Under the pieces are notes generated by a model. That model did no database searches. It was not told where the DNA came from and saw only the letters and a program-made list of their open reading frames with translations. From Ignavibacteria bacterium (GTDB lineage Bacteria > Bacteroidota > Ignavibacteria > Tepidaquicellales > Tepidaquicellaceae), in the NCBI GenBank assembly GCA_028714695.1, contig JAQTLX010000005.1, forward strand, positions 1-64,000: a stretch of 64,000 nucleotides of DNA, written 5' to 3'. This document shows positions 2,735 through 9,543 of this stretch, piece after piece; within the stretch, counting starts at the first letter, position 1; each line of letters starts with the position of its first letter. A program made the position numbers and the translations under genes.

Positions 2735-3118
2735 AATCCGCGGGTTCATTTTTTCCGTTTAATCCCGCGGCCTGCCTGCCCGCATTCACCTGTCTGCTAC
2801 AGGCAGAGGCAGAGGCAGGGAAATGAAAAAAAAATAATCTAAGATAATCTGTATAATGTTCCTTGTCATCCCCTGTTGTCTCGAACGGAGATTGTTTTTC
2901 TGCGTGAAAGTCTTTTGCTTTTAAATTATTGTTGTTCCGTGCAATCATTTTTTTCTGTGTCGTCCCGCGGGAAATGAAAAAAGTTTTTATCTGTGATAAT
3001 CTGTATAATTTTCTTTGTCACCCCCGGATGTTCTTGAACGGGGGCTGCTTTTATCTGTGTGCAAGGTTCTAGTTCTTAATTCGTGTTAATCCGTGGCAGA
3101 AAGTTTTTATTCGTCCCG
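2735..3118. repeat. Composite repeat-filled spacer (2670-3174)
   Basis: This 505-bp spacer shows no convincing gene. It contains TCCGCGGG at 2737, CCCGCGGC at 2764 and CCCGCGGG at 2964. A GC-rich imperfect inverted repeat built from CCTGCC/GGCAGG lies at 2771-2820. Two diverged direct copies of about 75 bp sit at 2821-2893 and 2972-3048, both with 'GATAATCTGTATAAT' followed by a GTCA-CCCC segment. The second copy contains a hairpin with CCCCCG (3021-3026) and CGGGGG (3039-3044). A final CGTG/GGCAGAAAGTTTTT module, as in the left-edge array, ends near 3110. Confidence 0.75.
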
Positions 3119-4168: not shown

Positions 4169-4572
4169 AACCGATTATTCATAAGTAAAAAATAAAATGT
4201 TCGACAAAAAGCATAAAGAAAAAATAAATTCCGCTATTCCGGGTTCATATCCGCAAGTTCAAATTAATCGTTATAAGATTTACGATCTTAAAATTCGCGT
4301 ATATTCGTGTCCGTTATTTCTTATTCTTTCTAATTTTTTCTGCGATTTCCCGCGGGCAATATGAAAATTTTTATGCAATGCATGGGAATTTTTTATTATT
4401 GTAATTCGTGATAATCCGCGGCAGAATACCCCCATTTTTTGCATAAAATCAGCCGTTTTTCACGCTCTTTCGTTCGTTTTTTGAATTGAAATATAATTTC
4501 AATTTTATTGTAAATTCCGTTTATTTTGAGTATTTTCAATAATTAAATCAACTAAAATAATAACAATTTCAT
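4169..4572. other. Spacer upstream of dnaN, with repeat modules and a palindrome
   Basis: This 404-bp divergent spacer has no gene that I can support. It holds CCCGCGGG at 4349-4356 and the TTCGTGATAATCCGCGGCAG module near 4413-4432, both shared with the left-edge array. At 4484-4504 is a perfect AT-rich inverted repeat, AATTGAAAT-ATA-ATTTCAATT, 68 bp before the dnaN start. I see no cluster of DnaA boxes (TTATNCACA) by eye, and dnaA itself is not in the window. Confidence 0.6.
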
Positions 4573-6021
4573 ATGAAATTTTCTATTTCTGCCGATAAGT
4601 TTTTCAATGCGGTCAATAAACTGAATTATGTTGTTCCGGGTTCGTCACATTCAACACTACCTATACTTTCGAATATATATTTTAATCTCGAAGGCAATCA
4701 GTTGAATATGGTCTCGACAGACCTCGAAGCATTCATTAAAACCGGAATTGAAGTTGAAGGAACGGAAAACGGCTCGATTGCAGTGCCGGCGAGAAAATTA
4801 CTTGATTTGTTAAAAGCCCTGATTATAAAATCGGAAGCCGTAATTGCTAAAGTCGCTTATAATCCCGATTCATTTGCAATGCTCTCGGGCGATTCACTCG
4901 TTCCGGATCTTGCGGAAATGAAATCGCGTTACGACAGCGGCGCCGGAATGCTTGTGTTTAAAGGACCTATGCCGCAGGAGTCATTTTCATCTCTCGACGA
5001 AACTCTTGCAGAACTCAAAGAAAAAGTTTCCGGAAAAGATTCGGCTGAAATAAAAGAGGCGTTTGATACATTCTCGGCAGCAATGAGAAAACTCAGCGGC
5101 GATGCGCTTTCCGCATTCAAAAAATCCGCGGATAAGATTAAAATCAAATTTGAATCGAACGATAAAAATAAGATTACAATCAATTCAAAGAACGGCAAAT
5201 ACCAGTTCTTCGGCGAGCCCGTCGAAGACTATCCTCTGCCTGACGAGCGAGAAGACCTTTCAAAGATTGAAATGGAAGGACATCTTCTAAGAAGATATGT
5301 ACAGAAAGTGAAACATTCGGTGAAAAATGACGAGATAAGACGCAATATGGCGGGGGTGTTCATGGATTTGAGAAAAAACGAACTCCGTTTCGTTGCTACT
5401 GACGGGTTCAGGCTCAGTAAAGTTATAACATCGGAATACACACACGAAAACGGCAAGGACGATAACTTCATTCTTCCGATAAAAACAGTTGACCTCGTAC
5501 CAAAACTCATAACGGACCAGAAAGTTAAAATCGAATTCGACAACTCGATGATTAAATTCACGGTTGACGGTGTTACGGTTTATTCAAAACTCATTGACGA
5601 TACTTTCCCGAATTACGAATCAGTAATTCCGAAAGACAACGACAAGAAACTTCTTATCAGCCGTTATGAAATTCTGAGCGCTCTGCGCCGTGCATCTATT
5701 TTCACGGACAAAGTTACGATGAGAGTTAAATTTGAAGTGACTGATAACGAACTCACGATTAAATCGGATAATCCCGAAATCGGCGGCGAAGGCGAAGAAA
5801 CACTCGACTGTGATTTCAAGACCAATGCCGGCGACGAGATTTCCGAAACGTTCGCTATCGCTTTTAACGTAACGTACCTGCTCGACTGCCTTACGCAGAT
5901 TGAAACGGACGAAATTATGCTTACTTTCAGTACTCCTTCCAAAGCATCCATTATTCTGCCCGTCGGGTCGGATACTGAGGAAGATTACATGGAATTAATT
6001 ATGCCTGTAAGGGTCGGATAA
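4573..6021 (+). CDS. dnaN: DNA polymerase III beta subunit (sliding clamp) with insertion
   Basis: The replication sliding clamp, 482 residues against the usual 365-380. The N-terminus (MKFSISADKFFNAVNKL, then LPILSNIYFNLEGNQL) and the C-terminal domain (DNPEIGGEGEETLDCDF, ending EDYMELIMPVRVG) are standard. The first domain is interrupted after IAVPARKLLDLLKAL (about residue 83) and resumes at about residue 187 with 'KIKIKFESNDKNKITINSKNGKYQFFGEPVEDYPLP'. The intervening 100 or so residues include an Ala/Lys/Glu/Ser-rich, probably helical half. Frame and codon use continue smoothly, so it looks like a genuine insertion rather than an assembly error. It opens the dnaN-recF-DUF721-gyrB cluster, with recF 12 bp downstream. 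Confidence 0.95.
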   Translation: MKFSISADKFFNAVNKLNYVVPGSSHSTLPILSNIYFNLEGNQLNMVSTDLEAFIKTGIEVEGTENGSIAVPARKLLDLLKALIIKSEAVIAKVAYNPDSFAMLSGDSLVPDLAEMKSRYDSGAGMLVFKGPMPQESFSSLDETLAELKEKVSGKDSAEIKEAFDTFSAAMRKLSGDALSAFKKSADKIKIKFESNDKNKITINSKNGKYQFFGEPVEDYPLPDEREDLSKIEMEGHLLRRYVQKVKHSVKNDEIRRNMAGVFMDLRKNELRFVATDGFRLSKVITSEYTHENGKDDNFILPIKTVDLVPKLITDQKVKIEFDNSMIKFTVDGVTVYSKLIDDTFPNYESVIPKDNDKKLLISRYEILSALRRASIFTDKVTMRVKFEVTDNELTIKSDNPEIGGEGEETLDCDFKTNAGDEISETFAIAFNVTYLLDCLTQIETDEIMLTFSTPSKASIILPVGSDTEEDYMELIMPVRVG

Positions 6022-6033
6022 AATAATCACAAA

Positions 6034-7222
6034 TTGCTATTAAGGAAAATCAATTTATATAATTTCAGAAATTACGCAGTCCAGGAATTAAGATTCAACA
6101 GCAGTTTCAACTACATTCACGGCAACAACGGAGAAGGCAAAACAAACATTCTTGAGGCGATTTCATACATTTCATTCGGGAAAAGTTTTTTAAACTCTGC
6201 GGAGAATGACTGCGTTATGTTCGATTCCGAAGGATTCAATGTCAGCGGAATCTACGAAAACGAGGTAGATAATATTTTCGACGTCAGTCTGAATTATGAT
6301 TATCTTTCAAAGAGGAAAACATTTCACCTTAACAAAGAAAAGGTAAGCCGATGGTCGGCGGAAATATTCGGAAAGTTTCCCGTTGTTTTTATGTCTCCGC
6401 ACAGCCTGAACATAACTTACGGAAATCCGTCCGAAAGACGGAAATTCTTTGACATACTGCTCGCGCAGACAAGCAGGGTTTATCTCGACCTGCTGAAAAA
6501 TTTCACGAGAATACTGAAGCAGAAAAACTCGCTTCTGAAAAACCAGTTGAACGGAAATGCAATGCCGGGAAGGGATTTCAGAAACCTGCTGAATTCGTAT
6601 AACGAAAAATTTATCGAGTTTTCGGCGGATATTCTTTTCAGAAGATTCGCGTTGATGGATAAGTTCATGGACTATTTCAGGGAAAGTTTCGAGTACCTTA
6701 CCGACACTGAAGACGAGCCCGGAATTTCATATTATACGGAAATTTTCGGAGACAGAAAATATTCAGCGGCAGATTTAAGCGGCATTTCGATTGAAGATTT
6801 AAACGGCATGCTGTCAAAAAAAATATCGGAAAAGGCTTTGGAAGAATCGGCGCGTGGAATCAGCGTTGTTGGACCGCACCGCGACGATTATATATTCAGC
6901 CTGAAAAAAGATACCGGCGGCACGGAGAAAAAAGGGTTTGAGATCAAAAATTTCGCGTCGCAGGGCGAACATAAGACTTTCGTTATTGCGCTTAAACTTG
7001 CGGAATATCATTTTCTGAAAGACGTGCGGGGAAGCCTGCCTATGCTGCTTCTCGACGATTTGCTTTCGGAACTTGATTCGGTGCGGGTTTCAAAAATAGT
7101 TTCGCACCTAAAGGATTACGGACAGATTTTCCTGACAACAACGGATATGTCGTATCTTAAAGAATTGAATAATTTTTATTCAAATAATGAAATTTCGTCA
7201 TTCAAAGTAGTGCGGGGAAGAG

Positions 7223-7230
<8 letters not shown>
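6034..7230 (+). CDS. recF: DNA replication and repair protein RecF
   Basis: A 398-residue SMC-like ATPase that helps load RecA at single-strand gaps with RecO and RecR. The Walker A is GNNGEGKTN near residue 30-38; the signature-like segment FASQGEHKTF and the Walker B MLLLDDLLSELD lie in the last quarter. The start is a TTG at 6034, because the first conserved residues (LLRKINLYNFRNY) begin there and no in-frame ATG precedes them after the dnaN stop. The gap to dnaN is 12 bp. The end overlaps the DUF721 gene by 8 bp, so the two are translationally linked. Confidence 0.95.

Positions 7231-9543
<2,313 letters not shown>

Follow-up and report, generated by a model that had tools for sequence, protein, structure and literature searches.

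A predicted folded extra domain inserted in domain I of the sliding clamp within one family of Ignavibacteria

Each domain of the bacterial sliding clamp (DnaN) contains two antiparallel helices, and in the S. pyogenes clamp most of the acidic patches are located on the face opposite to loop I (part of PMC1368978). In E. coli, loop I, which follows helix 1 (P20-L27), touches the DNA and helps loading, and two residues of helix 2, R73 and R80, form part of the pore lining and also touch the DNA (part of PMC5042465). For S. pyogenes, an insertion in domain I is reported with the ring left intact; it is only six residues long, however, lies in another loop (between strands 4 and 5) and does not form a domain (part of PMC1368978). 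The 55 solved clamp sequences that we matched were at most 410 aa in length, except four longer ones, of which two are named as MutL fusions and one as a SMT3 fusion, the fourth being 6pth. Here we describe a clamp that shares with bacterial DnaN (TIGR00663; 8dt6, 2pol) all three domains and the core fold, and that differs from it by an extra domain of about 105 aa located after helix 2 of domain I. No clamp insertion of such kind was found described in the literature searched, at the level of titles and abstracts, and an insertion in trypanosomatid PCNA was looked for and was not confirmed by the literature search.

We considered as the window the whole stretch of 64,000 nt analysed, in which dnaN is one unbroken frame of 482 aa (see the table for the coordinates of the features). 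The encoded protein exceeds the gathering score for all three clamp domains of Pfam (PF00712, PF02767 and PF02768), with the match to domain I ending at residue 83 and picking up again past the insert, and it reaches 232.9 bits, in two stretches, against a cut-off of 137.65 for the NCBIfam equivalog TIGR00663. The best AF2 model of the clamp had a mean pLDDT of 90.2, and the predicted protomer was superposed by VIA-align on the clamp of Elizabethkingia (Bacteroidota; 8dt6_D) over 368 residues at 1.5 A (Z 43.0) and on 2pol with a Z of 41.4. Because of the DnaN family matches and of these superpositions of the model, the core is that of an ordinary clamp, as the sequence-only reading had assumed from the motifs on both sides of the insertion, and the insert is additional to it.

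Table. Features of the clamp gene and of its neighbours in the window
Feature	Position	Strand	Basis
dnaN, DNA polymerase III beta subunit (sliding clamp), 482 aa	4573..6021	+	TIGR00663, PF00712, PF02767, PF02768; Foldseek and VIA-align matches to solved clamps
Insert (residues 84-188) in clamp domain I, after helix 2 and before the following strand	4822..5136	+	Alignment of family clamps with and without the insert
Predicted strand 90-95 and helix 98-106 of the insert	4840..4890	+	AF2; over residues 91-110 the pLDDT block means are 93 and 89
Putative module region, made of the hairpin 118-121/126-131, the helix 141-153 and the beginning of helix 158-186	4903..5100	+	Joint-profile match, the window itself being a row of the profile; hhalign; shuffle tests
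recF (neighbour; tree marker)	6034..7230	+	ORF list
gyrB (neighbour; tree marker)	7564..9543	+	ORF list

In genome G000 the clamp gene gave one match, corresponding to the single copy of the genome, with recF and gyrB nearby; we take the ORFs after dnaN to be recF, a DUF721-type ORF and gyrB, and the ORF at 768-1805 presumably encodes a deoxyhypusine synthase-like protein. The window starts within a tandem repeat array (1-667), which is therefore truncated, with a unit of 135 bp, 4.9 copies, 97% matches and long open frames on both strands. Parts of this unit recur singly at 3053-3108 and at 4388-4425, one of them upstream of dnaN.

By alignment, the insert corresponds to about 105 residues that are absent from the aligned insert-free clamps; the insert-free clamps of the family that were shown in full length among the matches listed, 7 in number, are 379-380 aa long. 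The insertion of about 100 residues in domain I of a 482-residue clamp, with an uninterrupted frame, that had been proposed from the sequence is thus borne out, and the proposed boundaries (4822-5130) were right within two codons. Over 15 genomes of the family the insert measures 81-105 aa, or 102-105 aa in 14 of them, the shorter one (81 aa) being that of L015; its frame is open in 15/15, and no internal stops were found in the clamps of the listed relatives. That the insert is an artefact of assembly or of frame, or a chimera, is a reading for which we found no supporting evidence and whose probability is practically negligible: 15 of the 29 family genomes have an open insert at the same site, and these are separate assemblies, among which there is the complete, single-contig chromosome G028 (CP054675.1, also L069). 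Hence neither an assembly error nor a sequencing error that had lengthened the clamp accounts for it.

The clamp was searched in 59 relatives, and 58 of them had a match; the relatives that are named are mostly Ignavibacteria or Bacteroidetes MAGs. Within the family of the window a clamp was matched in 29/29 genomes, with the insert at the site in 15 (G000-G004, G008-G011, G018, G019, G022, G023, G026 and G028) and an ordinary clamp in 14; the insert occurs in 7 of the 16 genera, none of which is mixed. We also ran the profile of the insert alone (A1), a search proposed by the sequence-only reading, over 395 genomes of the phylum, and an insert in the clamp was recovered only in G000 and G019, which are the members of the family drawn in that sample. 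An insert-free clamp query matched 387 of the same 395 genomes, 7 of them with two matches; among these 7, only G000 and G019 had a split clamp, and the other five each had an unsplit match over all, or nearly all, of the query. Since no other clamp of the 387 sampled was split at this site, in the phylum sample the insert is a feature of family level, and the possibility that it is universal in the group was rejected. As a separate observation, G333, G287, G261 and G413 each have two full-length clamp-like places, with a contamination of 0-1% in the first three and of 7% in G413.

For the history of the insert we used a tree of GyrB and RecF with 34 rows of 53 (the window and 52 loci), on which the presence of the insert needs at least 3 changes. 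The main clade of insert-bearing loci does not include L073, which has the insert, and does include L072, which lacks it, both being weakly placed. The inserts can be aligned along their entire length, with L015 shorter, and for this reason we find a single early gain, with later losses, more likely than several gains at one site, although the tree does not settle it. The clamp alignment A2 included 14 of the 15 rows (L008 was left out), A3 included 36 of 53, and A4 had 13 rows (L068 was left out). In A2, the loop I region (after helix 1; columns 23-24; window 4573-4650) has two extra residues in the genus of the window and in G009 with respect to the other insert-bearing clamps.

In the AF2 model of the clamp the insert consists of a strand (90-95), a helix (98-106), a short helix (113-116), a beta hairpin (118-121/126-131) and two helices (141-153 and 158-186), with pLDDT block means of 77-93, and a model of the insert only, from 13 sequences, gave the main elements in the same order with a mean pLDDT of 81.3. 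The insert is thus predicted, with good confidence, to fold as an alpha/beta domain of its own. The sequence-only reading, which had suggested predicting the structure of the monomer, expected an Ala/Lys/Glu/Ser-rich and probably helical segment; this agrees with the second half of the insert, whereas a strand, a helix and the hairpin, the last an additional find, are predicted in the first half. The model supports a real extra domain, predicted to be folded, in domain I of a clamp whose core is intact.

That reading had not recognised the sequence of the insert, and our searches of Pfam, NCBIfam and PDB sequences with the insert likewise gave nothing reliable. The structural searches with the insert model were read as giving no match, either by Foldseek against the PDB (best E 0.28) and against viral structures (best E 0.034) or by VIA-align (best Z 5.0); these scores fall in the range of common arrangements, and the absence of a match does not make the fold new. 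TrsD/TraD (NF041427) was rejected as an identity because the insert of the window scored 19.6 bits, far below the curated cut-off of 200, and only 2 of the 15 inserts were listed at all.

Over an alignment of 14 clamps, the mean entropy is 1.40 at 21 positions of the insert that are mostly hydrophobic and 1.95 at 41 polar ones, and the only polar positions of low entropy are K86, G131, K184 and K188. The alignment therefore points to an insert that keeps a hydrophobic core and varies at its surface. In the same 14 clamps we found no conserved surface patch on the insert, hence no sign of one conserved partner; binding of a partner by the insert is possible.

All the inserts are acidic (15/15), with a net charge from -2 to -7 and a pI of 4.7-5.5, and this disfavours DNA binding. 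It bears directly on the reading in which the domain, at the rim of the pore, would give an extra grip on duplex DNA: its starting point is that the insert follows helix 2, whose R73 and R80 touch DNA in E. coli (part of PMC5042465), but with a net negative insert in every case we consider it exceedingly unlikely.

As regards the position on the ring, the two helices of each domain are antiparallel and loop I, which helps loading, comes after helix 1, so that the insert, which follows helix 2, likely sits at the rim of the pore and faces away from both the clamp loader and the polymerase; we infer this from topology. Such a position would leave the partner cleft and the loader contacts free, which fits the intact core, and the insert is acidic, like the opposite face of the S. 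pyogenes clamp. A change in the interaction with the loader, which the sequence-only reading had put forward, becomes less likely with this face. We consider very unlikely, for the same reason, that the domain contacts the clamp loader or the polymerase and alters loading or switching, even if the insert is in domain I, which moves strongly when the ring opens (part of PMC11139829). Y-family polymerases are present in 28 of the 29 genomes of the family, in most cases two of them, whether the insert is there or not, hence with no link to it.

We then compared insert and core in 7 chosen close pairs, which are not all the possible pairs, and the insert was the more divergent in 7/7. Precisely, the identity of insert and core, respectively, was 48% and 97% for L002/L003, 55% and 92% for L001/L002, 43% and 92% for L001/L003, 87% and 96% for L004/L005, 77% and 91% for L007/L008, 83% and 96% for L013/L016, and 73% and 89% for L009/L011. 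L002 and L003 belong to sister species (G002 and G001), in which 52% of the residues of the insert differ against 3% of those of the core. At DNA level, in the loci of the same two genomes (L062/L063), the dnaN core shows an identity of 78-98%, which drops sharply to 43-58% across the insert, where the alignment has no gaps, and recovers to 87% at the 3' end of the insert. Where the residue is unchanged, identical codons were 14/49 in the insert against 226/356 in the core for L002/L003 (p 4.4e-6), and 48/91 against 254/352 for L004/L005 (p 6.1e-4); in the other 5 of the 7 pairs the difference was not significant, and one of them leans the opposite way. The drop in identity at the borders, together with the excess of codon differences at unchanged residues, suggests that in some lineages the insert was replaced by a diverged allele, with many codons being saturated, so that this is a suggestion and not a proof.

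These comparisons are relevant to two readings. The first considers the insert as a passenger, tolerated at a loop that is permissive; it would be folded, with only its hydrophobic core constrained, and its surface would drift because nothing binds it. It accounts for the patchy occurrence in the family (15/29), the variable surface and the lower conservation of the insert in all seven pairs, but in 7 genera the insert has stayed open and foldable, with a length of 102-105 aa in 14/15, and drift of the residues alone does not explain the codon excess in L002/L003 and L004/L005, the five other pairs being not significant. We judge it rather unlikely, yet the main rival of the reading that we prefer. 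The second considers the domain as a shield or decoy that covers part of the clamp against phage proteins or toxins and that is diversified, or swapped by recombination, in an arms race; to our knowledge no clamp attacker of this kind is known for Ignavibacteria. The sharp borders and the excess of synonymous differences in the sister species are in line with it, as is the existence of known attackers of the clamp, namely Gp168, which targets the DNA channel (part of PMC11139829), and RipA and SocB, which target the hydrophobic pocket (part of PMC12795458). The synonymous signal, however, is seen in only 2 of the 7 pairs and the likely face of the insert differs from that of the pocket, so that we regard a shield or decoy as improbable.

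Outside the clamps, the profile A1 gave weak matches to L047, an ORF of 2427 aa (E 2.8e-6 per genome), and to other ORFs with lengths of about 430-447 and 890 aa. By Pfam, L047 has ABC_toxin_N with PA14, L048 has PBP_like_2 and L053 has ResIII. The hosts of what we call here an unnamed hairpin-helix module are thus of three sorts, the PBP_like_2 lipoproteins such as L048 and L128, which carry it at the N end, ResIII-type ORFs such as L053 and L129, and the ABC_toxin_N/PA14 ORF L047; no Pfam or NCBIfam family matched the module reliably. Ten putative lipoproteins (L048, L054, L056, L060, L121, L122, L124, L125, L127 and L128) carry the module as a conserved stretch of about 60 residues ahead of PBP_like_2, an assignment for which Pfam was run on L048 and L128 only. 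A similar hairpin-helix segment is present in helicase ORFs of about 880-890 aa (L051, L053, L123, L126 and L129), called ResIII-type from Pfam runs on L053 and L129 only.

Judged from their sequences, the non-clamp instances appear to have in common with the insert a hairpin followed by a helix and by a closing helix, as well as key residues; the insert differs in its greater length, in a strand and a helix that are added at its start and, usually, in 15-20 more residues before the last helix. We built a profile of five non-clamp modules with no clamp sequence in it (A5), which hhalign aligned with the inserts (A1) over 50 columns with a probability of 96.5%. In the 29 genomes of the family, the top four places found by A5 were clamp inserts (E 1.1e-6, 8.1e-6, 0.0012 and 0.0018), weaker matches to clamp inserts were found in G010, G019 and G008, and the insert of the window itself was not matched in this search. 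With respect to 200 shuffles, A5 scored higher on the real sequence than on all of them in 14 of the 15 inserts (in L003, 3/200 shuffles were as high); the insert of the window had a weak score of 13.2 bits, which 0/200 shuffles reached, and 15 insert-free clamps gave 0.9 bits or less. A profile of six lipoprotein modules not listed by A1 had its real score reached by at most 2 of 500 shuffles for 15/15 inserts and, on whole clamps, its best place was inside the insert in 13/15. These tests are partly circular, because the rows of A5 were first picked by their likeness to the inserts and the six lipoproteins were found via L048, itself a match of A1.

A joint profile, clamps included, matched further lipoproteins and ResIII-type ORFs. 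A search with the module of L048 as a single sequence matched 9 of 296 genomes, all outside the family of the window, and did not match the clamps of G000 and G019, which counts against the link at that level; when plasmids were searched with one of the inserts and with one lipoprotein module, no useful match was obtained. A match to DnaK in the genome of the window (E 0.0057, or 9.7e-4 with the joint profile; HSP70 by Pfam) was read as a chance match of helices. As the profile of non-clamp modules recovers the clamp inserts, we consider it quite probable that insert and module have a common origin, the insert deriving from a small roaming module. The same module could be imagined as the source of a hypervariable, exchangeable surface domain that, on an essential and otherwise nearly invariant ring of the replisome, diversifies under conflict with phages or toxins in the manner of an antigen, a view to which we give a low probability.

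The reading that we prefer, tentatively and at slightly less than an even chance, is that, early in the history of the family, a small roaming module of the hairpin-helix type, preceded by a strand and a helix, entered domain I at the loop that follows helix 2, and that some lineages lost it later. The insert would fold as an acidic alpha/beta domain of its own, present twice per ring, at the rim of the pore away from the loader and the polymerase, so that ring, partner cleft and loading would work normally. The domain may then serve as a peripheral and dispensable contact or spacing surface, tuned by each lineage to its own partners. Against this stand the 14 of 29 family genomes that manage without the insert, the non-clamp module lacking the leading strand and helix, and the missing fold match among the solved structures; the contact surface, in particular, is weakened by the lack of a conserved patch.

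In any case, this is a real variant within a known protein and not a new kind of clamp; the acidic charge of the insert, its fast change and its link to a module go beyond the sequence-only reading, and the last two would come as a surprise to a specialist. Few proteins of the cell are as constrained as the sliding clamp, which is also a drug target, and the solved clamps that we matched have no such insertion. A domain that can be gained or lost, and of which half the residues can change while the core hardly alters, indicates a permissive site on the ring. If the fast change does reflect a conflict, it would point to clamp attackers not yet described. The insert-bearing clamps represent a natural experiment on the rear face of the clamp, and the site may be suitable for tagging clamps.
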